From Zobellia alginiliquefaciens (GTDB lineage Bacteria; Bacteroidota; Bacteroidia; Flavobacteriales; Flavobacteriaceae): DNA of 64,000 nt. The notes beneath the pieces were generated by a model, which searched no databases, was not told the origin of the DNA, and saw only the letters and a list, made by a program, of their open reading frames with translations. The DNA is taken from contig NZ_CP119758.1 of assembly GCF_029323795.1 (NCBI RefSeq), positions 1,612,001 to 1,676,000 of the forward strand, written 5' to 3'. The position numbers and the translations under genes are program-made. Each line of letters starts with the position of its first letter. Position 1 is the first letter of the stretch. Positions 30,085 to 50,072 of the stretch are shown piece after piece.

Positions 30085-30097
30085 AGGTAAACTTGGG

Positions 30098-31483: not shown

Positions 31484-31543
31484 TCCCCTTATAGCAAAAT
31501 TCGATTCAAAAGTTGTATATACCTATCCAATAGCTTATTAACC

Positions 31544-34066
31544 TTACACCGAAAACGACTTATCCACAAGTTGTTTTTCCTTGTTCAGACCATATTTGGC
31601 TTCATACCCATATTTATGGTCCTCTTTTAATGCATCATTAAATATGATATAGCTCTTTTTCTTTTTATCACGAGGAATCAAATTTTCAAGATCTTCTAAA
31701 AACTCCACTTTAGAAATATTTCTTCTCACTACGAACAGATTAATATCCATAACATCTAAAAGCAGAAGAAAGTCAGACACCAAACCTACTGCAGGGGTAT
31801 CTAAAATAACGTAGTCATATTCCTGTTTCAGCTTCTCAACAACAGACTTCATTTTATCACTGGACAATAACTCATGAACATTACCGTCTACGATTTCCGA
31901 AGGGATAAATTTTAAATTTTTGACTTTTTCATGTGAGTGAATAACTTCATTCAATGAACTTAGTTCTCCCATTAAATAGTTGGATAATCCTTTCCCCTTT
32001 ATTTTACGAACCCCTTTAACCAGACTAGGGTTTCTCAAATCGGCATCAATAATTATGGTTTTCTTTCCCGCTTCTGCAAGTGTTATTCCCAGATTAATTG
32101 CACTATAAGTTTTGCCTTCCTCAGGCAATATAGAGGTTATGCCAATAACTCCTTTATCTGCAGAATTAACAAGTTTAAGATTTGTACTCAGATCTCGGAA
32201 TGATTCTTTAAGCTTCCAAAGTGCCACTTCCGAATCAGATTCTGCCGGTTTAAAATTTTGGTCTACAAAATCAAAAAGCTTTTCACTACCCTTAATTTTC
32301 CTTACCCACTTCTCAATATCAAAATCCAAAAAAGGAACCACTAGCTCCCTTTTCTTTTTTGGCTCATTATCATAATGCACGATACTCGCTATTATTGGCA
32401 TATCACTATTCGCCATAACCTGCTGAACATTCTCAATAGTATCATCTGGTGAAAAGAATATCATCCACCCCAAAGGTATGAGCATACCTAACACTACGGC
32501 AAGAGCCAATAAAAGAGATTTTTGTGGTGCTACAGGACCATTCCCCACCATTCTTGCTTCATCTAATATTCTCGTATCGGACGTACTCTCCGCTCTTGCT
32601 ATTCCTGTTTTAGCCAACTCTTGACTCAAGTACTTGTACAGATTCTCATACAGCGTATTTTGCCGCTCAATATTAAGCAATTGTATTTCTCTAGTAGGTA
32701 AAGAGCTTATCTGCTCATCAATGTTAGACAATTGAGATGTTATACCACCTAGAGCTGCTTGTGAAGACCTAACTGCACTTCTTAGGTTATTCAACAACAG
32801 TTCTGTAGATTCTTTTATTTGACCGTTTAAAATGGTCATCTCCTCATTGTTGCTCGTCACATAAAATTTCTTTCTTGAGCGCTCTGCGTATAATTCTTTT
32901 AATGCGAGAATATTCTGGTTGATCATGGGGTCCTCCAGGCCGATTCCGGAAGGCATTATGAATTCATCCTTGTTTCTATTACTCTTTACACTCCTAATAA
33001 TGGAGTTATAATAATTAATATTCATTTTTATTTTGGCAGCCTCAACCTGAAGGTTATTGGTCTGATCTAAAGCATTTGAGGCCGTAGCACCTAAATCCAC
33101 AGCCTTCTTGTCCCTTTTAAAGGCTTCTAGCTTTACCTCGAATTTGTTTAATGAATCAGATATGACCCTTAACTGATTTCTAATAAAAGCTTCTTTCCCC
33201 GCTGCAATCTCTGTTCTTGACGAAAGTTCGTTCTGAACATAATTCTGAGTTAGCTTTTTGAGAAAATCAACTTCTTTACTTACAATAGGCCCCGATGAAA
33301 CTATTTTAAAAATACTGGCCTGGATATCAATATTGTCGGCCTCTAATTTACCCATGTAATTTTTAGTGACTCCCTCAATGTTATTAATTACAAAGCTTAA
33401 ATCATCTCCGTCAAAATCTTCATCGTTTACGCTATATTCAGGTCTATTTAGAGTAAACGTGAAATATTCGTGTTCTACAGTATCTCCGAACTTATACTCC
33501 CCAGAAAAATCAAAACTTCTTTCTACATCTCTTACAGATCCGTTCAATGGATTAGAAACACCGAACTCGTCGCCTTCAATATTCAAGCGGTAACTATCGT
33601 CGGATAGTAATTCAATTTCAAAAGGAACCCCATACAATTGAGGTTTAGAACGATCCAAAAAAACTTCAAACGGAAAATATCCGTACTTCTCTTCTTCAGA
33701 AGACAAGAAGCTTTTGGTATAGTATGACACATCAAAACTAAGGTCTTCTATAGTTTGCCTAATGAGACTAAATGATTTTAAAATACCTATTTCATTATAT
33801 AGGTTTTTCTCCATTTCAATAAGGCTCACTCCGCCTTCAACATATTCACTGTCTCCCAAAACCCGGTTTCTACCTTTAGAGTCAATCAAAACAGAAGTGG
33901 AAACCTCATAAATTGGTGTGGCCACAGCAATATAAATCAACGCCAAAAGAACAAAGAGACCTATACTGGCCATAAAAAACATTTTGTTCTTATATATTTT
34001 TCTAAAAAATAATTTTAAGTTAATCTCTTGCTGAGCATTAACTTGATTATTCTTTTTCTCTTTCAT
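31544..34066 (-). CDS. Polysaccharide chain-length regulator / BY-kinase (Wzc-like)
   Basis: 840-residue inner-membrane tyrosine autokinase controlling polymer length and export. N-terminal Wzz domain: helix 33-53 (ASIGLFVLLALIYIAVATPIY), long periplasmic coiled-coil region about 55-500 with a GNVR-like LPTREIQLLNIERQNTLYENLYKYL, second helix about 513-533 (LLLALAVVLGMLIPLGWMIFF). Cytoplasmic kinase: Walker A ILPEEGKTYSAINLG (lysine about 651), A' TIIIDADLRNP, Walker B YDYVILDTPAVG. The C-terminal tail has only about three tyrosines (HKYGYEAKYG), fewer than the Tyr cluster of E. coli Wzc. Next to the Wza-like gene, as usual. Confidence 0.95.
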   Translation of the reverse strand: MKEKKNNQVNAQQEINLKLFFRKIYKNKMFFMASIGLFVLLALIYIAVATPIYEVSTSVLIDSKGRNRVLGDSEYVEGGVSLIEMEKNLYNEIGILKSFSLIRQTIEDLSFDVSYYTKSFLSSEEEKYGYFPFEVFLDRSKPQLYGVPFEIELLSDDSYRLNIEGDEFGVSNPLNGSVRDVERSFDFSGEYKFGDTVEHEYFTFTLNRPEYSVNDEDFDGDDLSFVINNIEGVTKNYMGKLEADNIDIQASIFKIVSSGPIVSKEVDFLKKLTQNYVQNELSSRTEIAAGKEAFIRNQLRVISDSLNKFEVKLEAFKRDKKAVDLGATASNALDQTNNLQVEAAKIKMNINYYNSIIRSVKSNRNKDEFIMPSGIGLEDPMINQNILALKELYAERSRKKFYVTSNNEEMTILNGQIKESTELLLNNLRSAVRSSQAALGGITSQLSNIDEQISSLPTREIQLLNIERQNTLYENLYKYLSQELAKTGIARAESTSDTRILDEARMVGNGPVAPQKSLLLALAVVLGMLIPLGWMIFFSPDDTIENVQQVMANSDMPIIASIVHYDNEPKKKRELVVPFLDFDIEKWVRKIKGSEKLFDFVDQNFKPAESDSEVALWKLKESFRDLSTNLKLVNSADKGVIGITSILPEEGKTYSAINLGITLAEAGKKTIIIDADLRNPSLVKGVRKIKGKGLSNYLMGELSSLNEVIHSHEKVKNLKFIPSEIVDGNVHELLSSDKMKSVVEKLKQEYDYVILDTPAVGLVSDFLLLLDVMDINLFVVRRNISKVEFLEDLENLIPRDKKKKSYIIFNDALKEDHKYGYEAKYGLNKEKQLVDKSFSV

Positions 34067-34168
34067 CTCGTTATCATTAATGTTTTCTTCCAGCCCAAAT
34101 ACTTTTCCTTTTTTGAACCTTCATGAAATTCTACTTTTACACTTACCCGGTAAGGAAACTCTGGCGCA

Positions 34169-34990
34169 TTAGTTGTTATTGAAACTCAATACTAATATGG
34201 TCGTAGATATTGCGGAAAGCACTAAACTGAAAACTCCCAAGTTCTTTTGAAAAAGATTTTCTTTTGATGTTTCTACGTACAACACATCATTGGGATGTAA
34301 AAAATAATAGGGCGACCTTATGATTTCCGGGCTTGTCAAATCTAAATCTACCACAATGGATTTATCTCCCTTTTGACGAATCAATTTAACGTTCTTACGC
34401 TTTGCAGATATGTTTAAATCCCCCGCGGCACTTAAAGCCTCAAAAATGGTTGCTTGAGTATTATATATATACGTTGTTCCTGGAGTTTTTACATCACCTA
34501 GAACCGAAACCTTGAAGCTGGTAAGCTTTACGGATACCACGGCATTCAATAAATATTTGTCTATTTCGGTTTGTACGAAATCGCGAATTTCTTCAACAGT
34601 CATGTCCTGCACATTAACCTTTCCCACGATAGCCAAATCTATAGCCCCTTCTTTATCAACAGTATAGCCTGTTAAAAAAAGTGAAGCAGGATTAGCCTGC
34701 AAATTTCTGTTTTCTACGGTTGAATTATTAAAATATGCTACTTGATCAGGATCTCTACTTTGCACTTTAACACTTAACACATCATTTGGTTGCACTCCAT
34801 ATTCCGTAGGTCTCAGACGTATGGTCATTTCTTGATCAGGACTTTGAAGGTAATTCACACCTTTAGTAGTATAACAAGAAGTTAATGTTAAAGTGATCAA
34901 TATTACAAAAACCCGCTGCAGGGAAAGTGCGGCATATGCATTTTTAAAAAAAGTAAGCATCGGTTTTTTTATGCTTGGTATAATTGTCAT
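34169..34990 (-). CDS. Polysaccharide export outer-membrane lipoprotein (Wza-like)
   Basis: 273 residues with a lipoprotein signal ending at Cys39 (LITLTLTSC). Poly_export domain at about 60-145 (RPTEYGVQPNDVLSVKVQSRDPDQVAYFN; GYTVDKEGAIDLAIVGKVNVQDMTVEEI) followed by a SLBB domain (about 150-235: VSVLGDVKTPGTTYIYNTQATIFEALSAAGDL). A C-terminal hydrophobic helix (about 250-268) is present, as in Wza-type proteins that cross the outer membrane. Forms the export channel with the Wzc-like partner encoded 102 bp downstream. Confidence 0.93.
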   Translation of the reverse strand: MTIIPSIKKPMLTFFKNAYAALSLQRVFVILITLTLTSCYTTKGVNYLQSPDQEMTIRLRPTEYGVQPNDVLSVKVQSRDPDQVAYFNNSTVENRNLQANPASLFLTGYTVDKEGAIDLAIVGKVNVQDMTVEEIRDFVQTEIDKYLLNAVVSVKLTSFKVSVLGDVKTPGTTYIYNTQATIFEALSAAGDLNISAKRKNVKLIRQKGDKSIVVDLDLTSPEIIRSPYYFLHPNDVLYVETSKENLFQKNLGVFSLVLSAISTTILVLSFNNN

Positions 34991-35089
34991 GGCTTAATTT
35001 TTACTTAGTCTCTTATTTTCGGATTCGATTTTTAACGTATAGAACATACGTTTGGAACAAGGGCGTTATTCGCCCAAGTATGCAAAAGA

Positions 35090-36481
35090 TTAAAATGCCT
35101 TTTTATGGTGACTCCCAAAAATGGTAAGAAAAATGATTTTAACATCTAACCAAGGACTCCAATTTTCAATGTACCATAAATCATGATTTACTCTTTGATT
35201 TTTTTGCTCATCTGTCACAGTTGGACCTCTCCAGCCATTTACTTGTGCCCAGCCTGTTATACCAGGTTTAACATAGCTTCTAACCATATAATGATTTACC
35301 GTCTTTCTAAAGTCATTTTGCAGATTGATTCTATGTGGTCGAGGACCTATAACACTCATCTCCCCTTTTAAAACATTGTAAAACTGGGGCAATTCATCTA
35401 AATCTCCTTTTCTTAAGAACTTACCTATACGAGTAATTCTAGGATCATTAACTACAGTAGACTTAGAACCGTTAACCGGATCTTCCGTTACTGACATTGT
35501 TCTGAACTTATAGCATTTAAAAGTTTTGCCCGCTTCACCCTTCCTAAGGGGGGTGTAAAACACCGGTCCTTTGGAGTCTATCTTTATAAGTAAGGCAATA
35601 ATTAAAAATATAGGAGACAGTAATACCAATACGACAAGAGCAAAACAAAAATCGAACAATCTTTTTAGTACAGTTGTACTAAAGTGATCTAGGGGAGACT
35701 CACGAAGTTTAAAAACCGCCAAATCTCCCATGGTGACAGCCTTGTAATTTTTAGATTTTAAAAGTGGGTTTTTAGGAATCAATTTCACCCTCACCCCAAA
35801 ACTATCAGCTATCGATATTGTCTCCATGATTTTTTCATGCTTCATACCCGCCATGGCAATAAAAATATCATCAATACCATGATTTGACAGCGCCTCTGGC
35901 AAATCATCTATACTACCGAAAATATTAAACCCTAAAACGTTTTTCGGCTTCTTATCTCTGTTCTCCAAGTAGCCCATGATATTATAGCCGTACTGGGTCA
36001 TCGCATTAGTAAAACCCTGAATGTTGTTTTCATCATAGCCCGACCCTATAAGTAATGTATCGGAAAAAAGATGCGAAGCCCTTTTCTTTAAATATTGCAA
36101 CAAATACTTATGGCTCACCAAGTTTAAATAGGAAAAAATAAAAATAGGTATAATAAAAGTTGATCGCGCAAAATACCTGATTTTTAGCAAAATAACAGCA
36201 CTAATAACGAAACCAACGAAGAAAAAAAGTGATGTTACTATACTCTTAAAATAACCAAAATCCGGATTAAAATAAAACTCACTACTCCTAATGTACATAA
36301 TGATTACTAACCAAGTAACATTATAGATGACCATTAACCGCACCATATTCCAAAGAATTGCCGTGTCACTAAATGAAAAATCAGGCAATTTGAACATAAA
36401 GCATATGGTCAAAACTACATTGAGTAGAACAAACTCAAATGCAAGTAAATTTATAAGAATAAATCTATTTTTTGAATTCAT
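35090..36481 (-). CDS. Undecaprenyl-phosphate sugar-phosphate transferase (initiating enzyme)
   Basis: Polyisoprenyl-phosphate hexose-1-phosphate transferase that starts repeat-unit synthesis. 463 residues: four N-terminal helices (about 10-125), a CoA-binding-like Rossmann region (about 138-240, LLIGSGYDENNIQGFTNAM), then helix LFDFCFALVVLVLLSPIFLIIALLI (about 270-295) and the bacterial sugar transferase domain with GPVFYTPLRKGEAGKTFKCYKFRTM, RKGDLDELPQFYNVLKGEMSVIGPRPH and RSYVKPGITGWAQVNGWRGPT. The glucose/galactose choice is not readable. First gene of the minus block. Confidence 0.94.
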   Translation of the reverse strand: MNSKNRFILINLLAFEFVLLNVVLTICFMFKLPDFSFSDTAILWNMVRLMVIYNVTWLVIIMYIRSSEFYFNPDFGYFKSIVTSLFFFVGFVISAVILLKIRYFARSTFIIPIFIFSYLNLVSHKYLLQYLKKRASHLFSDTLLIGSGYDENNIQGFTNAMTQYGYNIMGYLENRDKKPKNVLGFNIFGSIDDLPEALSNHGIDDIFIAMAGMKHEKIMETISIADSFGVRVKLIPKNPLLKSKNYKAVTMGDLAVFKLRESPLDHFSTTVLKRLFDFCFALVVLVLLSPIFLIIALLIKIDSKGPVFYTPLRKGEAGKTFKCYKFRTMSVTEDPVNGSKSTVVNDPRITRIGKFLRKGDLDELPQFYNVLKGEMSVIGPRPHRINLQNDFRKTVNHYMVRSYVKPGITGWAQVNGWRGPTVTDEQKNQRVNHDLWYIENWSPWLDVKIIFLTIFGSHHKKAF

Positions 36482-37079
36482 GGGGGATATTTAGTCGGTT
36501 TTAAAAGTTTATAAAATAGTTTGCCTCCTCACCGAACAACGCCAAATATATGAATGAAATAATTAACTTTTAATGAATATTACTTCTTCTACGGCAATTG
36601 ACCTAAAAATTAGTCAATCCACATTATATTAAGTAAAACATTAAAAGATGTTCGGAATTATCATATAGTCGATCTACGAATTAATCATCAACTTAGATGC
36701 TTACATTACGCAAGCTTAACAAGATAAAATAAATATTTTCCTTTTACCCACTGTTAATCAGAATATTATACCGAACAAAGCTAAATATGAATATAAAGTC
36801 CGAAAATTCATTAATTCGTCACAACCCTATCCTACTCTATGCTATTTTCAATGAGAACTTATAAAGGATATTAATCCATTACGCTATAATTGCCTCTAAA
36901 GATCAATTGAAAATAGAATAATCTCAATATAACAGGAAACCGATGTGATTATCTCACATTCGTTTTTACATTTTTATGATTAGTTGATTAACTAGAATAA
37001 AAATCGATTTTATAGAGATTATGGCAAATCTACTACGTAAATTTAGGGTAGGTATACAGATATAAAACTCATCAAAACT
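36482..37079. other. Long divergent intergenic region
   Basis: 598 bp, AT-rich, between the polysaccharide operon (minus) and phosphofructokinase (plus). I see no gene in either direction apart from short chance ORFs. It contains the candidate -7 box at 36543-36550. The length leaves room for a regulated promoter of the export operon, a leader RNA or a small RNA; none could be recognised. Confidence 0.5.
36543..36550 (-). promoter_or_regulatory. Candidate -7 box of the minus-strand polysaccharide operon
   Basis: Minus-strand TATATTTG (TAnnTTTG), 62 bp upstream of the initiating transferase. No TTG at the -33 distance, so only half of a promoter is visible. Confidence 0.45.
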
Positions 37080-38411
37080 ATGGCCGATAAAAGTAATTTT
37101 GATATTCAAACATTAGGGGTGCCAGCCATACCATCACCAATAAATCTCAGCAAGACCAGTGGAGACAAAATATTCAATTTTATTAACGAAAACGATAGAA
37201 TTTTAGCAGATACTTCCATCCATAATTTCAATACTTGTATGGAAAATATGAGTAAGCCGGAATGTCTGGAAAAAGCTGGTCCAAGGGAAAAGCTCTTTTT
37301 CAATCCTGAAAAAACAACTGCAGCCATCGTTAGTTGTGGAGGTCTCTGCCCCGGAATAAATAACGTAATCCGAAGTTTGGTTATGGCTCTGCATTATTTT
37401 TATGGAGTAAAGCGAATTATTGGAGTGAAATATGGCTATGAGGGACTCATTCCTGAAAACGGACATGATTTTATGGATTTGGTACCGGATAAGGTAAAAG
37501 ACATTCATGAATTTGGAGGAACCATCCTCGGTTCTTCTAGAGGCGCCCAGTCTGTAGAAAAAATGGTCGACTCTCTGGTAAAGAACGACATTAATCTTCT
37601 TTTTACTATTGGCGGAGATGGCACCCTTAAAGGAGCTAATGCTATAGGAGAAGAAATTGAAAAAAGAGGACTGAATATTTCGGTTATTGGGATTCCAAAG
37701 ACAATTGACAACGATATAGACTTAATTGATAAATCATTTGGTTATGAAACCTCGTTCGATGTTGCTAGTCCCATTATTAGAGATGCGCACAATGAGGCTA
37801 CCGGAGCTTTCAACGGGATTGCCATTGTAAAACTAATGGGTAGAGATAGTGGATTTATCGCTGCATCTACCGCTATTTCCATGCCTGTGGTCAATTTTGC
37901 ACTAGTACCAGAAATGCACTTTCAGCTAGATGGTAAAAATGGATTTTTGGAAGCTCTTAAAAAAAGGCTGAACAATAAGAAACATGCCGTTATTGTTGTT
38001 GCCGAAGGGGCAGGACAACATTTGTTCAATGATGACAGTAAATCCCATAAAGATGCATCGGGAAATATTGTTCATCAAGATATCGGCCTTTTATTAAAGC
38101 AGCATATTAAAGAATATTTTGATGGCCAAAATATGAAGACTACCGTAAAATATATAGATCCAAGCTATATTATACGCAGTGCTCCCGCTAATGCCAACGA
38201 CAGCCTTTTTTGTAACAGACTAGCCTATCATGCGGTTCATGGCGCTATGGCAGGGAAAACTAAATTTGTGATAGGCAGGCTCAACCACAAATTTGTTTAT
38301 TTACCAATTTCAAAAGTGGTCAACAAACGTAAGAAAATTGACTTGGAGGGCGAATTTTGGTTCGGGGTATTGCAAAGCACTGGGCAACCATTCACCATGT
38401 ATGATGAATAG
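37080..38411 (+). CDS. 6-phosphofructokinase, ATP-type with long-clade signature
   Basis: Glycolytic kinase converting fructose 6-phosphate to the 1,6-bisphosphate. 443 residues, longer than the ~320 of E. coli PfkA and in the range of plant/protist-like long PFKs. Motifs: GGLCPGINNVIRSLV (about 88-102), ILGSSRGAQ (about 150), GGDGT at 178-182 (the Gly after GGD favours ATP over pyrophosphate), PKTIDNDID with Lys207 (a lysine found in PPi-dependent and long group enzymes), VKLMGRDSGFIA (about 257), VPEMHF. The Gly/Lys combination is known from group-X ATP-dependent enzymes, so ATP use is expected but not certain. Stands alone. Confidence 0.9.
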   Translation: MADKSNFDIQTLGVPAIPSPINLSKTSGDKIFNFINENDRILADTSIHNFNTCMENMSKPECLEKAGPREKLFFNPEKTTAAIVSCGGLCPGINNVIRSLVMALHYFYGVKRIIGVKYGYEGLIPENGHDFMDLVPDKVKDIHEFGGTILGSSRGAQSVEKMVDSLVKNDINLLFTIGGDGTLKGANAIGEEIEKRGLNISVIGIPKTIDNDIDLIDKSFGYETSFDVASPIIRDAHNEATGAFNGIAIVKLMGRDSGFIAASTAISMPVVNFALVPEMHFQLDGKNGFLEALKKRLNNKKHAVIVVAEGAGQHLFNDDSKSHKDASGNIVHQDIGLLLKQHIKEYFDGQNMKTTVKYIDPSYIIRSAPANANDSLFCNRLAYHAVHGAMAGKTKFVIGRLNHKFVYLPISKVVNKRKKIDLEGEFWFGVLQSTGQPFTMYDE

Positions 38412-38422
38412 ATAATAAAACA

Positions 38423-38707
38423 CTACTTTTTCTGCAAATACAGTTCTCTATAATACTGTTCTGCCATGCGGGCGCTCGTAAATTTGGGAACTATATCTTC
38501 AATAGCTTAAAAGTAATTGGCTGTACCTATACGCTCGACATTCCAAGAATAACTTAGGCAAAACCTTTAATATCGGACCTACCAATCGTCAACAATTCCA
38601 ATAGCGTTATCTGTAATTAGGCTTATATCCAAAGGGTAAAATGGAAAAAGTAGATTATCGCTTCGTTGTTGCAATAGTTTTGGGCCATTAAAAAAAGTAC
38701 AACGCAT
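38423..38707 (-). pseudogene. Decayed gene fragment with three in-frame stops
   Basis: Reading the minus strand from an ATG at 38707 in one frame gives MRCTFFNGPKLLQQRSDN and LLFPFYPLDISLITDNAIGIVDDW, stop (TAG), VRY, stop, RFCLSYSWNVERIGTANYF, stop, AIEDIVPKFTSARMAEQYYRELYLQKK, stop at 38423-38425. The segments are protein-like and share one frame, so this looks like the C-terminal end of a gene that lost function by point mutations. The ending SARMAEQYYRELY resembles the RM..eY...fY ending of alpha-glucan phosphorylases or of GT-B enzymes; the family is not secure. It fills most of the 423-bp gap 38412-38834; the remainder is the promoter of the next gene. Confidence 0.5.
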
Positions 38708-38766
38708 AAAAGGTTTTTCCCCATATATTCAATATCTATTCTAGATGATTTAAAAATATAATTTCC

Positions 38767-38796
38767 TTGGGTATTGATAAATTAATAATATATTTG
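38767..38796 (+). promoter_or_regulatory. Consensus Bacteroidota promoter of the Nramp-like/manA operon
   Basis: TTG at 38767-38769, exactly 19 bases, then TATATTTG at 38789-38796: a full match to TTG-N19-TAnnTTTG. Transcription should begin near 38803, about 30 bases before the ATG at 38835. The -7 box lies inside the left arm of the inverted repeat 38787-38825. Confidence 0.8.
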
Positions 38797-38825
38797 GTTA
38801 ACCAGATTGGTTTACCAAATATATT
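38787..38825. promoter_or_regulatory. 39-bp inverted repeat made of two palindromes, probable operator
   Basis: Arms 38787-38803 and 38809-38825 are 17 bp with one mismatch, 5-base spacer. Each half contains its own palindrome: TGGTTAACCA (38796-38805, perfect) and TTGGT-TT-ACCAA (38808-38819). TGGT...ACCA sites are typical of GntR/FadR-type and some LacI-type sugar regulators, and are unlike MntR or Fur boxes. It overlaps the -7 box and start site, so a bound protein should block transcription. It could also fold as an mRNA hairpin 10 bases before the start codon. Confidence 0.7.
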
Positions 38826-38834
38826 TTAATAAAT

Positions 38835-40097
38835 ATGGAACATCAAAAAGAAAATTGGCGTGCTAAGTTTTCTGCTTATATAGCCCTCTTTCTACCCGGT
38901 ATCTTTTTGTTGGGACTTAATATTGGTACGGGTAGTGTTACTTCCACGGCCAAAGCCGGAGCTGACTACGGCATGTCCCTACTTTGGACAATTTTAGCCT
39001 CCTGTCTTACCACTTATTTTATGATCAACCTTTATGGGCGCTACACCCTTGTAACAGGGGAAACCGCATTGCAGGCATTTAAAAAACATATACATCCTGC
39101 TGTTGGCATCTTTTTTATTATAGCCTTAACGGTTGGTGTTTGCGGTAGTGTCATGGGAGTGATGGGCATTGTTGCGGATATATGCCATGAATGGTCCAAA
39201 ACAATGGTAGAAGGTGGGATATCTCCCGTATACTTTGCACTATTCTTTATCATATTGGTCTACTTCATATTCTGGAATGGCAAGACTCAATTTTTTGAGC
39301 GGGCATTGGCTGTAATAGTGGCTATAATGTCCGCTAGTTTCCTATTGAATTTCTTTATCATGATGCCACCGCCTATTGAGATCCTCAAAGGTTTTATTCC
39401 AAATGTCCCACAAACGATCAGTGGAGAAAAAAGTCCACTGCTGATTATTGCATCTCTCATAGGAACCACAGTGTTTTCCGGCTTGTTTATCATTAGAACA
39501 ACTTTAGTGAAGGAAGCAGGGTGGACGTTAAGCGATTTAAAAAAACAAAGAAACGACGCCCTTTTCTCAGTAACCTTAATGTTCTTGATAAGTGGTTCTA
39601 TCATGGCAGCAGCAGCCGGAACTTTATATGTTGAAGGTATACAATTATCAAGAGCATCGCAGATGATCGAGCTTTTACAACCACTAGTAGGAAGTTTTGC
39701 CACCTCTATATTTGCAGTAGGAATTGTTTCTGCCGGAGTGTCTTCTCAATTTCCCAATATCCTAATGCTACCTTGGTTAATCTGTGATTATAATGAAACT
39801 GAGCGCGATATGAGCTTGCCCAAATACAGGCTTATCGTCTTTTTAATTTCAATCCTAGGCTTGGTAGTTCCCATTTTTGACGCTCAACCTGTCTTTGTAA
39901 TGATTATTAGTCAAGCGCTAAATGCAATTATTTTACCGCTTACGGTTCTTGGCATCTTCTACCTGGTAAATAGAAAGGATTTGATGGGTACTTATAAAGC
40001 CAACATAAAATCGAATATAATTTTGAGCCTCATACTAATCTTTGCAATTTTCACCTCGGTAACGGGTATTAAAGGGGTAATTGAACTTATAAACTAG
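38835..40097 (+). CDS. Nramp-family-like transporter lacking the metal-binding motifs
   Basis: 420-residue inner-membrane protein, 11-12 helices, recognisable as an Nramp relative from FLPGIFLLG...AGADYGMSLLWTILASCL, which parallels the TM1-TM2 region of MntH. In true metal transporters TM1 carries DPGN and TM6 carries MPH; here the TM1 position reads NIGTGS (29-34) and the TM6 position reads IGTTVFSGLF (about 209-218). The metal ligands Asp, Asn and Met are therefore missing. Gene order (4 bp before a phosphomannose isomerase), and a control region of sugar-regulator type, suggest an organic substrate such as a hexose or sugar acid. That is inference; a divergent metal importer for the zinc-dependent isomerase is the alternative. 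Confidence 0.75.
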   Translation: MEHQKENWRAKFSAYIALFLPGIFLLGLNIGTGSVTSTAKAGADYGMSLLWTILASCLTTYFMINLYGRYTLVTGETALQAFKKHIHPAVGIFFIIALTVGVCGSVMGVMGIVADICHEWSKTMVEGGISPVYFALFFIILVYFIFWNGKTQFFERALAVIVAIMSASFLLNFFIMMPPPIEILKGFIPNVPQTISGEKSPLLIIASLIGTTVFSGLFIIRTTLVKEAGWTLSDLKKQRNDALFSVTLMFLISGSIMAAAAGTLYVEGIQLSRASQMIELLQPLVGSFATSIFAVGIVSAGVSSQFPNILMLPWLICDYNETERDMSLPKYRLIVFLISILGLVVPIFDAQPVFVMIISQALNAIILPLTVLGIFYLVNRKDLMGTYKANIKSNIILSLILIFAIFTSVTGIKGVIELIN

Positions 40098-40101
40098 AAA
40101 C

Positions 40102-41196
40102 ATGAAAATCGATTTACAGAAATACGCACAGATTCCTTTAAAGCAAATTTCAAACCGAGTATGGCGTACGTATTCCGGAGGGGCTTTAATCGATAATTGG
40201 AAAAAAGACACCCCAGAGGTAGATAATAGTTTCCCAGAAGAATGGATAATGTCTACCGTAACCGCTAGAGGCAAAAACAGACCGGAAGATGAGGGTCTAT
40301 CCAAAGTTGAAACGACAGAAGGCCTCATAGCTTTAAAAGATATAATAGAATCGAACAAGGAGCTATTTCTAGGGAAGAAAGTTGCAGAAAAATACGGTTC
40401 TACAGGGGTTTTGATTAAAATGCTAGATTCGCAAGAACGCTTAACCATTCAAGTACACCCGGATAAAACTTACGCAAAGGACATCCTTAATTCTTCATTT
40501 GGAAAAACAGAGTCGTGGTATGTTCTAAACACAAGAGAAATAGAGGGTGAAACAAGTGTGGTGCACATGGGGTTCAAAAAAGGGGGCACCCGTGAAAAAT
40601 GGGAAGAACTTTTTTTAAATCAAGATATAGAAGGTATGCTGGACAGCCTTCACAAAATTGAAGTAAAACCCGGTGATGCTTTTATGATTTACGGAGGTGT
40701 TCCACATGCCATTGGAAGTGGGTGTTTCCTAATGGAAGTGCAAGAACCTACGGATTACACCATGCGCGTTGAGAAAATTACTCCTGCAGGATTAGAAATC
40801 TCTCCTGAATTAATACACCAAGGGGTAGGAGAGCAAACTATGCTAGACTGTTTTCATTATGACGACTACACCCTAGAAGAGGCCATGGATAAGTGGAAGA
40901 TAGAACCCAAAACCATAGACTCTGCCGATGGTCATACTTTAAACACTATTTTTAATACAAAGCACACCAATTGTTTTGGACTCAGCGAACTGTATTTAGA
41001 TGGTGAACATTCCATAGCTTCCAACGGAAGCTTCTATGTGATAGTCGTGTATTCTGGTACCGGCACCTTAAACTGCAATGGGAAAGCGTACACTTACAAT
41101 CAAGGTGATGAAATTTTTATATCAGCTGCAATAGAGAACATTACTTTTAAATCTACCGAAAGCTCTAAATTGTTACTTTGCTATCCTCCAAGTTAG
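40102..41196 (+). CDS. manA: Class I mannose-6-phosphate isomerase
   Basis: Zinc-dependent cupin isomerase interconverting mannose 6-phosphate and fructose 6-phosphate. 364 residues, a little longer than B. subtilis ManA (about 315). Starts with KISNRVWRTYSGG-type sequence (LKQISNRVWRTYSGGALIDNW); zinc site LTIQVHPDKTYAK (Gln and His, about 114-126), VKPGDAFMIYGGVPHAIGSGCFLMEVQEPTDYTMR (third His, about 191-228). The C-terminal cupin half (about 280-360) has FYVIVVYSGTGTLNCNGKAYTYNQGDEIFISA. Starts 4 bp after the transporter stop, so it is co-transcribed. May link imported mannose to glycolysis or fructose 6-phosphate to mannose-containing polymers; no sugar kinase is adjacent. Confidence 0.92.
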   Translation: MKIDLQKYAQIPLKQISNRVWRTYSGGALIDNWKKDTPEVDNSFPEEWIMSTVTARGKNRPEDEGLSKVETTEGLIALKDIIESNKELFLGKKVAEKYGSTGVLIKMLDSQERLTIQVHPDKTYAKDILNSSFGKTESWYVLNTREIEGETSVVHMGFKKGGTREKWEELFLNQDIEGMLDSLHKIEVKPGDAFMIYGGVPHAIGSGCFLMEVQEPTDYTMRVEKITPAGLEISPELIHQGVGEQTMLDCFHYDDYTLEEAMDKWKIEPKTIDSADGHTLNTIFNTKHTNCFGLSELYLDGEHSIASNGSFYVIVVYSGTGTLNCNGKAYTYNQGDEIFISAAIENITFKSTESSKLLLCYPPS

Positions 41197-41476
41197 AAAT
41201 TCCCTTTTCCTCTTCCCACTTCTAAACCCCTCACTCAAATGGGCTGGACATATAAATATGCTCAGCCTAAAAAATAATGTATGTTATAACTCTGTATATG
41301 CCCTAAATAAACACCTTTTTCCCCTAACCTATTCTACATTTCTGTAGCATTTAATCAACCGCTATCTTAATTTTCTAATAACGTTGAAGTAACGACAAGG
41401 CCAAATAGCATTGGTATTTTCGCTCAAACTGAACGATTACCTGGGCGGTTAAGAAAGAACGAAAACCAACTTCAAT

Positions 41477-43219
41477 ATGAAAAGAAATACTACTACAAGA
41501 AGAGCCTTTTTGGCAAAATCTATCTGGGCATCGGGAGGAGTCATCCTAGCTTCTCAACTAGTCGCTTGTGAAAAACTAGATAACTTAATCGGTAATGGCG
41601 ATGCAAATGACGAAATTCCTAGATTTCTGCATGGTGTGGGAAGTTTTGACCCAACCGCGGAAGCCGTGATGATTTGGACACGATTTACACCTACCACGGA
41701 AGAGGTGAATCAAATCATAGACATAAAATGGCAAGTGGCAACAGACCGTGCATTTACGAATATAGTTACCGAAGGAAGTAGCGCTTGTTCCATAGAAAAC
41801 GACTTCACGGTAGTTGAAGACGTAACGGGGTTATCCTCCAACAATACATACTATTATCGTTTTATGGAGGAAAATCTTAAAACTACTTCCGTAGTTGGGG
41901 AAACCATTACCTTGCCTAAAGCCGGTGAGCATCTCACAAATCTTAAGCTAGCTGTTTGTTCCTGTAGTAACTATCCCGCGGGACTTTTCAACGTGTATGA
42001 CGCTATTGCTAAAAGCGATGCAGACATAGTCATTCATTTAGGTGATTATATTTACGAATATGGTGAAGGAGAATATGGTACCAATGAAAACACAGAGGCT
42101 TTAAAGCGTGTTCATGACCCTAAGAATGAGATATTAAGTCTTGAGGATTACCGTTTAAGATACAGACAGTACCGTACGGATGAAAGTCTTCAATTGGCAC
42201 ATCAAAAAAAACCGTTCATTGTTGTTTGGGACGACCATGAAATAACAAACGATACATATACTACAGGTGCCGAGAACCATTCTGAAGATGAAGGCTCTTT
42301 TGATCTAAGAAAGCAATTTGCTGTTCGCGTACATGGCGAATACCTACCTATTAGAACTAACGACAGAAATATTATATATCGAAGTTTTCAATTTGGAAAC
42401 CTTGCCAACCTTGTCATGTTGGACACAAGAGTTATTGGAAGAGACAAACAACTAAGTTTTGGCGATTATTTTTCAGCTGATGGTAATTTTGATTTTGGAG
42501 GTTTCTCCTCAGCTATGATGGATCCCAACCGAAGCATCTTAGGTTCTGAACAGTTGGCATGGGCAGCATCACAAATAACCGGAAGCAATGCTGAATGGCA
42601 AGTTATAGGCCAACAAGTCTTAATGGCCAAAATGTTCGTACCTGCAGAATTATTAATTGGAATTGGTGCTGTGTCATCAGGGAATGCCACGCCAGAAGTG
42701 TTTCAACAATTACTTAACACCATTTCTGAACTATCCACAATTAAAGCACGGGTGCTAAACAATGACCGTTCTTTGACTCCCAGTGATTTAAGTCGTATAA
42801 ATACGGTTGTACCTTATAATCTTGATGCATGGGACGGCTATCCTGTTGAAAGAGAAAAACTCTTTGCTCTTCTGAACGGTAAAAAAACAATTGTACTAGC
42901 AGGAGACACACACAATGCTTGGAACAGTAATTTAACCGATGTAAATGGTGATAAAGTAGGCGAAGAATTCGCTTGTTCATCAGTAACTTCACCTGGTTTT
43001 GAAGGCCTCTTTGGTACGGATCCAGAAACGGTTGCAGGTATAGAACAAGCATTTTCTCTACTTATAGACGACCTAAAATATTTTGACGCATCACGAAGAG
43101 GCTACGTAATGGTGGAATTCACAAGTGGTTCTGCTGTTGCAGAATATCGCTTCGTAGACAATATTTCATCTTCTGTTTACAACACCACTATAGGTAAAAC
43201 AATAACAGCAGATATATAA
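41477..43219 (+). CDS. PhoD-type alkaline phosphatase/phosphodiesterase
   Basis: Exported calcium/iron-dependent phosphoesterase, 580 residues. N-terminus TTRRAFLAKSIWASGGVILASQLVAC is a twin-arginine signal ending in a lipobox (Cys about 30), so a Tat-exported lipoprotein. N-terminal beta domain SFDPTAEAVMIWTRFTP (about 53-69), catalytic domain with KLAVCSCSNYPAGLFNVYDAIAKSDADIVIHLGDYIYEYG (metal Cys/Asp, about 158-197), VVWDDHEITNDT (about 248), VLAGDTHNAWNSNL (about 474). Stands alone with its own upstream region (280 bp, nothing recognised). A bidirectional terminator follows. Confidence 0.94.
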   Translation: MKRNTTTRRAFLAKSIWASGGVILASQLVACEKLDNLIGNGDANDEIPRFLHGVGSFDPTAEAVMIWTRFTPTTEEVNQIIDIKWQVATDRAFTNIVTEGSSACSIENDFTVVEDVTGLSSNNTYYYRFMEENLKTTSVVGETITLPKAGEHLTNLKLAVCSCSNYPAGLFNVYDAIAKSDADIVIHLGDYIYEYGEGEYGTNENTEALKRVHDPKNEILSLEDYRLRYRQYRTDESLQLAHQKKPFIVVWDDHEITNDTYTTGAENHSEDEGSFDLRKQFAVRVHGEYLPIRTNDRNIIYRSFQFGNLANLVMLDTRVIGRDKQLSFGDYFSADGNFDFGGFSSAMMDPNRSILGSEQLAWAASQITGSNAEWQVIGQQVLMAKMFVPAELLIGIGAVSSGNATPEVFQQLLNTISELSTIKARVLNNDRSLTPSDLSRINTVVPYNLDAWDGYPVEREKLFALLNGKKTIVLAGDTHNAWNSNLTDVNGDKVGEEFACSSVTSPGFEGLFGTDPETVAGIEQAFSLLIDDLKYFDASRRGYVMVEFTSGSAVAEYRFVDNISSSVYNTTIGKTITADI

Positions 43220-43258
43220 ATCGCTTTTTTCAGCTGAAAAAGAAAAGCGGAGGGTTTA

Positions 43259-43293
43259 AAAAGACGGACAGGTATAATCCTAGTCCGTCTTTT
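43259..43293. terminator. Bidirectional intrinsic terminator between phoD and the zinc-ribbon gene
   Basis: AAAAGACGGAC (43259-43269) and GTCCGTCTTTT (43283-43293) form a perfect 11-bp stem with a 13-base loop; A-run on one side and T-run on the other. It lies between two convergent genes ending at 43219 (plus) and 43318 (minus), the expected place for a shared terminator. Confidence 0.88.
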
Positions 43294-43317
43294 ACCTTTA
43301 TAATACAATCAGTAGCA

Positions 43318-43914
43318 TCAAACAACATAAAACTCCACATGAATATCATTAACAGGTTCTGTTCTTAATCGCTCCTTTCTTGCAGTAAAATGCAAAACTT
43401 CTAAGGGATTAATCTCTGACCGCATGGCAGACGCATCTATAGAAAGGTTACGTGCCAATAGTTTCCCCAGTGCCTGATATCGATACCGTACGAGTATATT
43501 GACCAGTTTAGTGGCATTTTCCATCTGGGAAAGTATTAATTGCACCAATTCATTGTGCTCCTTGGTAAACGTATAATTCATTTTACAAGATCTACAACGA
43601 ACTACCAATAAGCCTTCTTGCTGATAATTCCATAGTTGCATTTTATCATTATTGCACTTTTTGCATACTGAGGTCTTCTGCCCCAGACCATCAAGAAGTT
43701 CATCCAAATCTTTATACTGCTGTACGAGCCCAATATTATCCACCAACCACCACCTTGCTTTTCTTCTTTGTTCAGAAAGTGTAAAACCAAAATACCAAAA
43801 GAAAAATAACATGGAAGAAATAGTCATTGACACCAGTAGTAAAGGGCCAACAGCAATAAAGAAAGATTGTACGGATTCGGCTTCTTGAATAGAAGTTAAT
43901 AGGGAACTAAACAT
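43318..43914 (-). CDS. Membrane-anchored protein with a CxxC/CxxC zinc ribbon, function unknown
   Basis: 198 residues, family not recognised. One transmembrane helix at about 19-43 (FFIAVGPLLLVSMTISSMLFFFWYFGF). Cytoplasmic part has VCKKCNNDKMQLW at about 83-95 and LVVRCRSCKMNYTF at about 103-116, a four-cysteine zinc ribbon, followed by a mostly helical tail. The protein may bind nucleic acid, a partner protein or metal near the membrane. Convergent to phoD and divergent to the GH2 genes, so no operon partner indicates a role. The 1-to-3-frame ORFs that overlap it were rejected because this frame has the coherent zinc ribbon. Confidence 0.7.
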   Translation of the reverse strand: MFSSLLTSIQEAESVQSFFIAVGPLLLVSMTISSMLFFFWYFGFTLSEQRRKARWWLVDNIGLVQQYKDLDELLDGLGQKTSVCKKCNNDKMQLWNYQQEGLLVVRCRSCKMNYTFTKEHNELVQLILSQMENATKLVNILVRYRYQALGKLLARNLSIDASAMRSEINPLEVLHFTARKERLRTEPVNDIHVEFYVV

Positions 43915-44255
43915 AAGTACGTGTCAAAATGGTTGGTTTTTGCAAAGTAACAAATTATAGGAAAGTATTCATATCACAAATGTTAAGTAATCATTATCAA
44001 CGTTTTGTCGCAGAAAACAATATAGAAACTCATTTTATTAACCCCTTTAAATCGAACACAAAAACATTGCAATGTGCAAGACACCTAAACATTAAAATTT
44101 CAAATCAATTTAAGTGATTTTCAATCAACTAACTGATTTTAAATCATTTACATTTAACATTAACCGTTATAACTACCGTTAAAGTAGGGTTAACGCCCTA
44201 GGGGCGACGCTTAAAACCTAACTTTATGCAGAGAACCACACTTTACTGAACCCGT
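43915..44255. other. Intergenic region upstream of the GH2 genes
   Basis: 341 bp, no convincing gene (a 62-codon plus-strand ORF at 43929 lacks protein-like character). It holds the TGATTT/AAATCA cluster listed separately, two direct copies of ACCGTTA 12 bp apart (44163-44169, 44175-44181), a small hairpin CGCCC-TAG-GGGCG (44194-44206), and TAACTTTA at 44219-44226, a near match to the -7 box 30 bp before the GH2 start. Confidence 0.5.
44102..44146. promoter_or_regulatory. Cluster of TGATTT/AAATCA half-sites, candidate regulator-binding region
   Basis: AAATCA 44102-44107, TGATTT 44115-44120, AATCA 44123-44127, TGATTT 44134-44139 and AAATCA 44141-44146; the last two form a perfect palindrome around one T. 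Four to five half-sites in 45 bp about 110 bp upstream of the first GH2 gene. AT-rich sequence makes chance occurrence possible. Confidence 0.35.
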
Positions 44256-47099
44256 ATGAAAAATCTTAAAATAACTATGACTGTCATCATAGCTCTTTTC
44301 CTATCTGTTTTAAACGCAAATGCTTTTCAGCCTGGCACAAATTCAACACAAACTAAAATCCGATATCTATCAGGTACAGGAATGGACGATATGGTAGAGT
44401 GGGATTTCTACGTCTCGGAAGGGAGAAAAAGTGGAGAATGGACAACCATTGGAGTACCTTCTTGCTGGGAACAACAAGGTTTTGGAGCGTACAACTACGG
44501 AAGCGATGACGTCAAAACACGCGCTAAAGAATATGGGGTATACAAATATAATTTCCATGCACCTGCGGATTGGAGTAACAACGAAGTAAAAATTGTTTTT
44601 GAAGGTGTTATGACAGATGCCGAAGTAAAAATAAACGGCAAACTGGCGGGAGAAATTCACCAAGGTTCTTTTTACGAGTTTAAATATGCAATAAGTAAAC
44701 TTTTAAATTATGGAAAAGAGAACCTATTGGAGGTTAAAGTGAATAAGGTTTCCGCAAACGAATCCATAAACCATGCAGAACGAGATGCTGATTTTTGGGT
44801 TTTTGGTGGTATATATAGACCTGTCTATTTAGAGATTTTACCCAAAGAACACATGGAGCGTGTAGCCATTGATGCAAAAGCCAACGGAAAAATAATTGTA
44901 GACGTATTTACCACTTCAAAAAAGGCTTCATCCATACAAATGTACTTATCAGATGATAAAGGGAATAAAATTCAAGATTTATCGGTTACAGAAAACAAGA
45001 GCACAAGCGAGAAATGGAACTTTTCTACCAAAGCAAATACTATAAAAACATGGAATCCTGAAACTCCCAATCTATACATCCTAACAATAGAACTCCTCAA
45101 CAAAAAGAATGAGGTACTGCATAGCTTAAATAAACGAATTGGTTTTAGAACGGTTGAAATTCTTGAAGGTGATGGCATTTATGTAAACGGGGAACGCATT
45201 AAGTTTAAAGGCGTAAATAGGCATTCTTTTCATCCCAAATCGGGTCGGACTACATCAAAAGCTTGGAGTATTGAACAAGCGCAACAAATGAAAGACATGA
45301 ATATGAATGCTGTTCGTATGTCTCACTATCCCCCGGATGTCCACTTTTTAGATGTTTGCGATTCCCTAGGCTTATTCGTCATAGATGAAATTTGCACGTG
45401 GCACAACCCAATGTTAGACACCAAAGTAGCTCGTAAAATTGTGAAGGAAACCGTGGTTAGAGACGTTAATCATCCTTCCATCTTACTTTGGGCCAATGGT
45501 AATGAGCAAGGTTGGAATCCAGAAGTAGATGATGATTACGCCAAATGGGATATTCAAAACCGAGAGGTCATCCACCCCTGGAGTATTTACAAAAAGACGA
45601 ATACCATTCATTACAGTCACTATCATTCCTTAATAAACGATGCCTATTCCAAAGAAAAAATCCTGTTCCCAACGGAGTTTTTACATGGTCTGTACGATGG
45701 TGGACATGGCGCGGGCCTAGAAGACTATTGGAATATCATGTGGAATTTACCTCTAAGTGCAGGCGGCTTCCTTTGGGGTTTTGCCGATGAGGGTATTGAG
45801 CGCACCGATAGAAACAATGAAATCGACTTACAAGGAAACAAGGCCGCAGATGGTATTGTTGGACCGTACGGTGAAAAAGAGGCCAGTTATTTCACCATTA
45901 AAGAAATATGGTCTCCAATTTATATTGAGGATCGGTATATAACTAATGATTTCAACGGAATTTTCAGATTAGAGAGCCGCTATCATTATACTAACCTAGA
46001 GAAATGTTCCATGACCGCAAAGTGGCTAAAGTTCGATGGACCAGACGGTAAAAAAAACCCTACTGTTTTTAGCGAAAGTGAAGTAAAATTACCCAACTTA
46101 GCTCCATCATCTAAAGGGAAAATCACGGTTAACAAGCCTCAAAACTGGCAATCTACCGATGCCTTGCACTTAACGGCGACAGACCCGTATGGGAAAGAGA
46201 TTTTTACATGGAGTTATCCCGTTTCTACACCAAAAGATGTGAGTGATTCTAAAACTGACTATAAGGGGTCCGAAGTTATTACAACAGAAACCAAGGATAA
46301 ACAGATAAGGATTGAGACAAACCATATAACCTATCGTTTTTCCAGAGAAACAGGCATGTTACAAGAGGTAAAAAAAGACAGTACCGTTATACCTTTAAGT
46401 AACGGGCCAATTATCCTAAATCAAGATCAAAAAATAGAAAATCTGACCGTAACCCCTTTTAAAAATAAAGTTGAAATAACCGTTGTTTATGAAAAGACGG
46501 ATAAATCACCGGGATGGTCAACCGTAAAAGAATATGCTTCAGATATTATAAAATGGACAGTGCATGCCAATGGTTTATTGGACTTAAAGGTTAAGTTTAA
46601 AGGTTACCGAAATGTAAAAGGTTTTAAGGGCATCACCTTTTCTTTTCCAGAAGAAGAAGTTGCAGGTATGAAATGGCTCGGAGATGGCCCGTACCGTGTT
46701 TGGAGAAATAGAATGAAAGGAACAAAATTCCAAGTTTGGGAAAACGATTACAATAATACCATCACCGGTGAATCCGGTTTTGTTTACCCGGAATTCAAAG
46801 GCTTTTTCTCCGGTTTATATTGGTCCAAATTAAAGGGTAAGAACAACAACGGTTTTACCGTATACTGTAAAACACCTCATACCTATTTACGTATGCTCAC
46901 ACCAGATGCGCCAGCCGATAATAAGAGGGATAAAGTAATTCCAGAATTCCCTGCAGGAGATATTTCATTTGTGATGAACATTCCTGCTATTGGCACCAAG
47001 TTTCAGTATGCCGAGAGTACTGGTCCACATGGTAATCCCGAGCATTATTTTGGTAACGACGACGATTTAATAAGCCTTGACCTAACCTTTAAATTTTAA
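44256..47099 (+). CDS. Glycoside hydrolase family 2, beta-galactosidase-like (copy 1)
   Basis: Secreted exo-acting beta-glycosidase, 947 residues with an N-terminal signal peptide (LKITMTVIIALFLSVLNANAFQ). Domain order follows LacZ-type GH2: sugar-binding jelly roll (about 45-200, CWEQQGFGAYNYG..., VYKYNFHAP), Ig-like domain (about 205-300), TIM barrel (about 305-590) with the acid/base in WANGNEQGW (Glu417) and the nucleophile in FPTEFLHGLYDGGHGAGLEDYW (Glu474), equivalent to LacZ ExxHxxGNSxGxxxDYW. A C-terminal beta-sandwich related to Bgal_small ends with KWLGDGPYRVW. Its substrate is probably a galactose-containing algal or plant glycan; galactosidase versus another exo-specificity is undecided. 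Followed after 10 bp by a close paralogue. Confidence 0.9.
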   Translation: MKNLKITMTVIIALFLSVLNANAFQPGTNSTQTKIRYLSGTGMDDMVEWDFYVSEGRKSGEWTTIGVPSCWEQQGFGAYNYGSDDVKTRAKEYGVYKYNFHAPADWSNNEVKIVFEGVMTDAEVKINGKLAGEIHQGSFYEFKYAISKLLNYGKENLLEVKVNKVSANESINHAERDADFWVFGGIYRPVYLEILPKEHMERVAIDAKANGKIIVDVFTTSKKASSIQMYLSDDKGNKIQDLSVTENKSTSEKWNFSTKANTIKTWNPETPNLYILTIELLNKKNEVLHSLNKRIGFRTVEILEGDGIYVNGERIKFKGVNRHSFHPKSGRTTSKAWSIEQAQQMKDMNMNAVRMSHYPPDVHFLDVCDSLGLFVIDEICTWHNPMLDTKVARKIVKETVVRDVNHPSILLWANGNEQGWNPEVDDDYAKWDIQNREVIHPWSIYKKTNTIHYSHYHSLINDAYSKEKILFPTEFLHGLYDGGHGAGLEDYWNIMWNLPLSAGGFLWGFADEGIERTDRNNEIDLQGNKAADGIVGPYGEKEASYFTIKEIWSPIYIEDRYITNDFNGIFRLESRYHYTNLEKCSMTAKWLKFDGPDGKKNPTVFSESEVKLPNLAPSSKGKITVNKPQNWQSTDALHLTATDPYGKEIFTWSYPVSTPKDVSDSKTDYKGSEVITTETKDKQIRIETNHITYRFSRETGMLQEVKKDSTVIPLSNGPIILNQDQKIENLTVTPFKNKVEITVVYEKTDKSPGWSTVKEYASDIIKWTVHANGLLDLKVKFKGYRNVKGFKGITFSFPEEEVAGMKWLGDGPYRVWRNRMKGTKFQVWENDYNNTITGESGFVYPEFKGFFSGLYWSKLKGKNNNGFTVYCKTPHTYLRMLTPDAPADNKRDKVIPEFPAGDISFVMNIPAIGTKFQYAESTGPHGNPEHYFGNDDDLISLDLTFKF

Positions 47100-47109
47100 A
47101 CCGTCTCCA

Positions 47110-49941: not shown

Positions 49942-49952
49942 ACCATACAGCT

Positions 49953-50072
49953 ATGAAAATAAAATATCAATTCTTTGCCTTGGTAGTAACGGCACTTTTT
50001 GTCGCTTGCAATTCCACAGAAACTAAGACCGAAGAAAAAGCGCAAGAAGATTTTCCTTTTTTCATCCCTTAA
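49953..50072 (+). CDS. Very short lipoprotein ORF (39 aa), possibly truncated
   Basis: ATG 11 bp after the second GH2 gene: MKIKYQFFALVVTALFVAC followed by NSTETKTEEKAQEDF and PFFIP, stop. This is a complete lipoprotein signal (VAC, Cys19) with a tiny acidic tail. The same frame stays open for 20 more codons after the stop (EKPGRPLSIALPVVKTGKEP), so the gene may be the start of a larger lipoprotein broken by a nonsense mutation or deletion. No function can be named. Confidence 0.5.
   Translation: MKIKYQFFALVVTALFVACNSTETKTEEKAQEDFPFFIP

Follow-up and report, generated by a model that had tools for sequence, protein, structure and literature searches.

The metal transporters of the SLC11/NRAMP family are recognized by the motifs DxxN and A/CxxM, and the Mg2+ carriers of the NRMT type by DxxG and TxxA/T (PMC8806188). 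An outgroup of the family has been called orphan (PMC10606218) and may connect, in evolution, the transporters of non-metal substrates with those of metals (PMC4072509); the literature passages available to us contain no agreed function for it. PxpT from C. glutamicum, a protein of the NRAMP family, is described as required for growth on 5-oxoproline (PMC13274462). Here, we report on a stretch of 64,000 nucleotides from the genome of Zobellia alginiliquefaciens (contig NZ_CP119758.1, positions 1,612,001 to 1,676,000), termed the window in the following, in which a gene for an Nramp-fold transporter is directly followed by a gene for a phosphomannose-isomerase-like (PMI-like) protein. Judged from its operator, the pair almost certainly belongs to the alginate regulon of the cell, and the transporter, judged from its lost metal ligands and from this operator, probably imports a sugar acid rather than a metal.

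In Z. galactanivorans, most alginate genes are repressed by the GntR repressor AusR (PMC8286568). Alginate lyases release saturated mannuronate and guluronate (PMC5809466), and the action of UxuB on fructuronate and of UxuA on mannonate is established (PMC6353982). The alginate passages of two reviews, one of them PMC6353982, go through 4-deoxy-L-erythro-5-hexoseulose uronate (DEH) only, and the term mannuronate isomerase did not occur in the literature passages at hand. These passages also yielded no paper that describes a sugar transporter of the Nramp type. The sole link between Nramp proteins and an alginate locus that they offer is a figure legend for Alteromonas 76-1, in which such genes are labelled metal transporters (PMC6431674).

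Gene pair, promoter and double operator

In our reading of open reading frames (ORFs; own script, at least 80 aa, longest first, no gene finder), 4 bp separate the stop codon of the Nramp gene from the ATG of the PMI-like gene (Table 1). The pair is preceded by a TTG-N19-TATATTTG promoter, which we take to be of the Bacteroidetes type, and a double operator lies over its -7 box. The inverted repeat of this operator (38787-38804/38808-38825) is 94% complementary, and its 25-bp core, with up to three mismatches allowed, matches the whole window at 38794 alone, on both strands; shuffled sequence contained 0.03 matches on average and two matches in none of 100 shuffles. The isomerase gene 4 bp downstream, the promoter and a double palindrome of 39 bp that covers the -7 box had all been put forward in the initial annotation of this DNA, and all three stand: the first by the ORFs, the second by direct reading and by its conservation in three further genomes of the genus, the third by the shuffle and reversed controls.

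The genome, a single contig of 5,066,785 bases, contains the 25-bp double site at eight places with at most one mismatch, while the reversed pattern gives no match even at three mismatches. The positions of the seven sites besides that of the window place each of them within or next to an alginate locus (Table 1). The alginate locus harbors two GntR-FCD regulator genes, at 934436-935161 and 939803-940528, and weaker double sites with three mismatches are situated directly before both of them (934391 and 939759). In the further loci L040-L159, the double site with up to three mismatches is found 61 times in 25 loci, in comparison to a single match in the same 2.12 Mb reversed. Our reading relies on the double arrangement. 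For the single site TTTGGTNNACCAAA with one mismatch, the number of matches is close to the chance level (57 versus 47 in the control); the strict single site WTTGGTWWACCAAW occurs 13 times versus six, and 11 of the 13 are halves of double sites. The two isolated ones, at 3296952 inside a putative rpoC gene and at 4248888 in a hairpin, were taken as chance matches. The pair thus has its operator in common with alginate genes, as in an alginate regulon of the AusR type, and we consider its membership in that regulon, at the level of sequence, close to certain.

The same promoter and operator stand in equal register before the orthologous gene in three genomes of the genus (L185-L187), with Nramp proteins 92% and PMI-like proteins 87-88% identical to those of the window and a leader to the start codon that is far longer than in the window. 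A full Nramp gene is present in four of nine genus genomes, our own included, and a shortened one in one of nine. In the latter (L188:8390-10124), only Nramp residues 246-420 are matched by tblastn and the PMI-like gene is whole; a double site with two mismatches precedes the two. A metal riboswitch was also considered and set aside, since an Rfam search of 38300-41400 gave no match at E <= 0.5.

Altered substrate site of the Nramp-fold protein

The window Nramp belongs to PF01566 (E 7e-57, 193.5 bits, curated cut-off 29.8). Its AlphaFold2 model (pLDDT 89.7, pTM 0.87), built on a 76-row alignment drawing on 75 of the 79 closer relatives introduced below (length 405-440), has the Nramp fold, with helices interrupted at residues 30-31 and at 213-214. 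When the model was compared with the PDB by Foldseek, rows 1-29 were all NRAMP-family entries, including an integrative YcsG model, and the query-normalised TM-score to the BfraNramp, DraNramp and EleNRMT entries in the top 15 rows was 0.73-0.82. Transmembrane helix 1 (TM1) reads NIGTGS and TM6 reads TTVFSG. An Nramp-like protein without DPGN and MPH is just what the initial annotation had described, and both the predicted fold and the alignment to the DraNramp site agree with it. In a common alignment, the DraNramp residues D, N, A, M, H and H face G31, S34, T211, F214, G216 and R221 of the window protein; outside the DxxN and A/CxxM motifs, it is our assumption that these DraNramp residues form the metal site. 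In E. coli MntH and DraNramp, the position of R221 is occupied by the second histidine of TM6.

Where metal Nramps carry DxxN plus A/CxxM, the window protein has GxxS plus TxxF. The ligands of these motifs are absent at the TM1 site and at T211 in 76 of 76 sequences, and the NRMT signature DxxG-TxxA/T is lacking in the window protein as well. Eight residues (G31, T32, G33, S34, T36, T211, T212 and R221) are invariant among 39 of 39 family-level and 76 of 76 closer relatives, which argues for a conserved alternative site and not for decay. Within this GTGS/TT/Arg set, it is conceivable that R221 holds the carboxylate group of a substrate.

Table 1. Features of the Nramp-PMI operon (window coordinates) and double sites with at most one mismatch (genome coordinates)
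Feature	Position	Strand	Remarks
Nramp-fold transporter gene, GTGS type (PF01566), predicted sugar-acid importer	38835..40097	+	420 aa ORF
PMI-like gene, predicted D-mannuronate isomerase	40102..41196	+	364 aa ORF
Promoter TTG-N19-TATATTTG	38767..38796	+	-33 TTG at 38767, -7 TATATTTG at 38789; read directly
Double operator over -7 box	38787..38825		25-bp core TTGGTTAACCAGATTGGTTTACCAA at 38794-38818; two TTGGTNNACCA palindromes 13 bp apart
Codons G31-T32-G33-S34, TM1 break, in place of DPGN	38925..38936	+	Invariant in 39/39 and 76/76; model break at 30-31
Codons T211-R221, TM6 break TTVFSG and R221	39465..39497	+	T211, T212, R221 invariant in both alignments
Double site	1650794		Window operon
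Double site	920238		Between TIM-barrel protein and small kinase-like protein (kinase/isomerase divergent pair), beside PL17
Double site	920847		Before PL17
Double site	924899		Before SusC-like gene
Double site	939214		Gap before second GntR-FCD and MFS genes
Double site	2569878		Before PL7 gene with F5/8 domain
Double site	4704672		Before PL6 gene
Double site	4707321		Before another PL6 gene; also faces divergent gene of other kind

Gene company of relatives

A survey of a collection of 84,980 species gave at least 563 confirmed relatives, of which the best 80, those most similar to the window protein, were kept. With L144 left out because no ORF matched, the neighbour counts refer to 80 loci, that is the window and 79 relatives with 46-85% identity. 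Cluster labels rest on one Pfam-scanned representative per cluster; the names PL6 (Chondroitinas_B), PL7 (Alginate_lyase2) and PL17 (Hepar_II_III_C plus Alginate_lyase) were assigned from Pfam matches, SusC/SusD labels by reading. The hosts, many of them metagenome-assembled, include Flavobacteriia, Saprospiraceae, Alteromonadales, Caulobacterales, Erythrobacter, Planctomycetes, Lentisphaerales and others.

UxuA and C2 isomerases are the commonest labelled neighbours in this group. Within 5 kb of the Nramp gene, uxuA is found in 40 of the 80 loci, a PMI-like gene in 26 and a gene for an isomerase of the AGE family (GlcNAc 2-epimerase) in four; at least one of the three is present in 56 of 80 loci and in 40 of the 55 loci whose flanks each exceed 4 kb. 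The initial annotation had asked for a conserved link with manA, and such a link does exist, with the AGE isomerase as a substitute in the four loci just mentioned (L086, L090, L101 and L111, from Caulobacterales/Robiginitomaculum assemblies). Such a replacement is expected if the step in question is an aldose-ketose isomerisation at C2. A Mannitol_dh-type UxuB-like gene lies within 5 kb in ten loci and an alginate lyase or KdgF-like gene in 20. Same-strand runs of the Nramp gene with uxuA, PMI or AGE genes occur in 48 of 80 loci, and in 41 of these the Nramp is the sole polytopic protein (at least seven predicted helices by a simple hydropathy count). The run UxuA-PMI-UxuB-Nramp, present in L085, L116 and L123, appears to spell out the route from mannuronate via fructuronate and mannonate to 2-keto-3-deoxygluconate (KDG). 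In Joostella (L080), an 85%-identical Nramp and a PMI-like gene are found within an alginate locus. A control of 23 loci with weaker Nramp matches from the same family contains UxuA, PMI or AGE within 5 kb in none, SusC-like genes in two and PL7 in one. In our genome, genes for a short-chain dehydrogenase/reductase (SDR) and UxuA, with kdgA on the opposite strand, are located at 4982213-4984945. Glucuronate or galacturonate was rejected as substrate of the window group, as the glucuronate isomerase gene uxaC occurs within 5 kb in only two of 80 loci.

The PMI-like protein has weak matches to PMI_typeI_cat (E 2.4e-07) and MPI_cupin_dom (E 1.4e-08) that are above the curated cut-off. In alignment, the class I ManA motifs QxHP, GKTE and HAxG are present as QVHP, GKTE and HAIG, which presumably form the metal site. 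The genome encodes a separate, ordinary ManA-like protein at 3332913. Compared to it, the segment RELH, which may have a role in substrate binding, is changed to ELIH in the PMI-like protein and an extra NRVWRTY segment is present. We set aside salvage of mannose-6-phosphate as the role of the operon, because this other ManA-like gene exists and the operator is that of the alginate loci.

At the family level, 39 of 40 matches with at least 210 bits were surveyed (the contig-edge fragment G037:C153 was omitted), including the window and a second Nramp of our genome that sits in its alginate locus. A lyase, KdgF-, KdgK- or KdgA-like gene is present within 5 kb in 24 of these loci, and 13 of the 14 lyase-bearing ones lack a gene of the major facilitator superfamily (MFS) cluster in the same distance. 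NagA/NagB genes occur in seven, uxaC with uxuA in two (L042 and L043), PMI genes in four and none of these in four, L045 and L052 being counted twice. A tree with 53 rows resolves four clades: the window group (97/95), the alginate group (100/100), the NagA/B group (100/100) and nine rows of a GPGTVT type (100/99). The canonical Nramps together with EleNRMT (98/85) are placed beside the GPGTVT rows. A single monophyletic group of all GTGS types is weakly supported (81/58) with long-branch warnings and was not adopted; the long branches make the deep order of the tree unsure. The GPGTVT-type Nramps (L077-L079, L195-L214) stand beside 5-oxoprolinase genes, with the PxpA motif in 15 of 23 (Pfam scan on examples), and are for this reason the likely counterpart of PxpT/YcsG.

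Several further arrangements were noted. The seven GTGS-type Nramps near NagA- and/or NagB-like genes (L044-L047, L053, L055 and L058) are possibly carriers of amino sugars. Near Nramp genes in alginate loci, a kinase-like and a 6-phosphogluconate dehydrogenase gene, fused or neighbours, recur (cluster c11, ten loci, among them L059, L062, L067 and L075). A third Nramp type with GPGSLT in TM1 and SSFS in TM6 (L045:7549-8796, L055 and L210) adjoins two proteins, one lacking any Pfam match and the other with weak similarity to dihydrodipicolinate synthase. Our genome also encodes a very divergent Nramp-like protein (C1:1137592-1138638, L003; 48 bits, TM1 AIGTSHLV), whose branch in the tree is very long. 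Finally, the window contains, at 44256-49941, two adjacent paralogous large proteins (947 and 943 aa) that read as GH2 beta-galactosidase-like.

Proposed function and comparison with described systems

These observations would fit a gene pair that belongs to the alginate regulon as an outlying operon. An AusR-type GntR-FCD repressor would bind the double operator, which covers the -7 box, and would be released when alginate is present. The Nramp-fold protein would then import D-mannuronate, the saturated monomer left once the lyases have finished a chain, the PMI-like enzyme would convert it to D-fructuronate and the SDR the latter to D-mannonate, from which UxuA would form KDG, entering the main alginate pathway at KdgK/KdgA. 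What is transported and in which direction, which reaction the isomerase catalyzes and which regulator binds are all inferred here. We regard D-mannuronate in particular as the best candidate, with somewhat better than even chances. It would also explain that no sugar kinase is encoded beside the Nramp. The suggestion of the initial annotation, an Nramp-fold group that carries a hexose or a sugar acid and is controlled by a regulator of the GntR/LacI type, thereby gains support from regulon and gene company, with transport and regulator still on the predicted side. In a wider sense, GTGS-type Nramps may constitute a whole set of transporters whose substrates are sugars and sugar acids such as mannuronate, DEH, hexuronates and amino sugars, and, together with a PMI-like D-mannuronate isomerase, a second, hitherto unrecognised entry of saturated alginate monomers, a generalization to which we give even odds.

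Several findings weigh against this interpretation. None of UxuA, PMI and AGE is encoded within 5 kb in 24 of 80 loci (15 of the 55 whose flanks each exceed 4 kb), and seven of the 48 same-strand runs include another polytopic protein (MFS in L109, L110, L124 and L133, SSF in L101, unlabelled in L081 and L099). Among the loci of the 80 kept relatives, the double site with up to three mismatches is limited to L080, L081, L082 and L103; as a feature of Flavobacteriia, it is silent on the proteobacterial relatives. The SDR-UxuA genes of our own genome at about 4982 kb have no double operator. In L089, L092 and L106, the Nramp-PMI pair stands in a mannose setting, beside genes for GH38/GH92 alpha-mannosidases. 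AGE-family enzymes include mannose isomerases, too, such that import of D-mannose and its conversion to fructose by the PMI-like enzyme could be considered. UxuA, the neighbour in 40 of 80 loci, has mannonate as its substrate and would be of no use in such a pathway, and the double operator of the window is shared with alginate loci only. We therefore hold mannose to be very unlikely. Import of another alginate product, DEH or L-guluronate, with the isomerase acting elsewhere in the pathway, would accommodate the paralogue in the alginate locus and the many kin in alginate operons, most of which lack a nearby MFS gene where a lyase is present. On the other hand, DEH use as described in the review passages needs neither UxuA nor a C2 isomerase, yet these are the commonest labelled neighbours, and the alginate locus of our organism already contains an MFS gene; we rate this possibility as unlikely, though not negligible.

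UxuA and PMI-like enzymes are metal-dependent, and an Nramp that supplies such metalloenzymes of the alginate pathway with Mn2+, Mg2+ or Zn2+ would be in keeping with its family membership. Moreover, none of the four PF01566 matches in the genome is a canonical DPGN Nramp, so redundancy does not argue a metal role away. B. subtilis YcsG, for which a requirement in the use of 5-oxoproline is reported too, is claimed to be an Mn2+ importer that raises cellular Mn2+ (PMC10448178), and its presumed flavobacterial kin are without DPGN as well; loss of DPGN therefore need not mean loss of metal transport. Set against this are the ligands missing throughout the closer relatives, the missing NRMT set, the lack of an Rfam match in the region searched and the operator in common with alginate genes. 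The literature passages at hand contain no protein with the window signature that has been shown to carry metal; YcsG is a more distant member of the family. Altogether, a metal importer appears quite unlikely to us, whereas sugar-acid import has, in our judgement, a good probability.

Were the GTGS-type Nramps indeed such a set of carriers, the metal-transporting Nramps would represent a single branch within a family that transports organic acids as well. Import of D-mannuronate by the window protein would name a missing step for saturated mannuronate, an alginate lyase product. Regulon and gene company tie this clade to uronate catabolism and thus provide a concrete substrate class and a testable question. 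They would also caution against metal-transporter labels for such genes in alginate loci.

Like the AusR system of Zobellia, the alginate locus of our organism comprises GntR-FCD, PL17, PL6, PL7, KdgF-like and KdgK-like genes. With its duplicated regulator and its PL17, PL6 and two PL7 genes, it is laid out like a published Zobellia type, and the duplication as such is reported for locus I of some Zobellia (PMC8073546). The Nramp-PMI pair differs by its location about 0.7 Mb from the alginate locus, and the available passages on the Zobellia AusR system make no mention of it. With class I ManA, the PMI-like protein has QVHP, GKTE and HAIG in common and differs in the NRVWRTY segment and in ELIH for RELH. 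With SLC11/NRAMP metal transporters such as MntH, DraNramp and BfraNramp, the window Nramp shares PF01566 and the LeuT-type fold, but G/S, T/F and G/R stand where those transporters have the ligands of DxxN and A/CxxM and the histidines of TM6. EleNRMT shares PF01566 and TT in TM6 with the window protein, but NRMT keeps the TM1 aspartate (PMC8806188), which is glycine here. In the presumed flavobacterial YcsG kin, the sequences read GPGTVT and TTVVPYNLFLH, and identity to the window protein amounts to 24-31%. The latter falls outside their clade in the tree and is thus presumably no member of the PxpT/YcsG group; reading the ORFs at 30000-50000, not all of them profile-scanned, we noticed no pxpABC beside it. 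Still, PxpT/YcsG is, just like the window protein, a PF01566-type protein linked to organic-acid catabolism, under a GntR-type repressor in C. glutamicum (PMC13274462), and the PxpT precedent supports the carriage of organic acids by Nramp-fold proteins.

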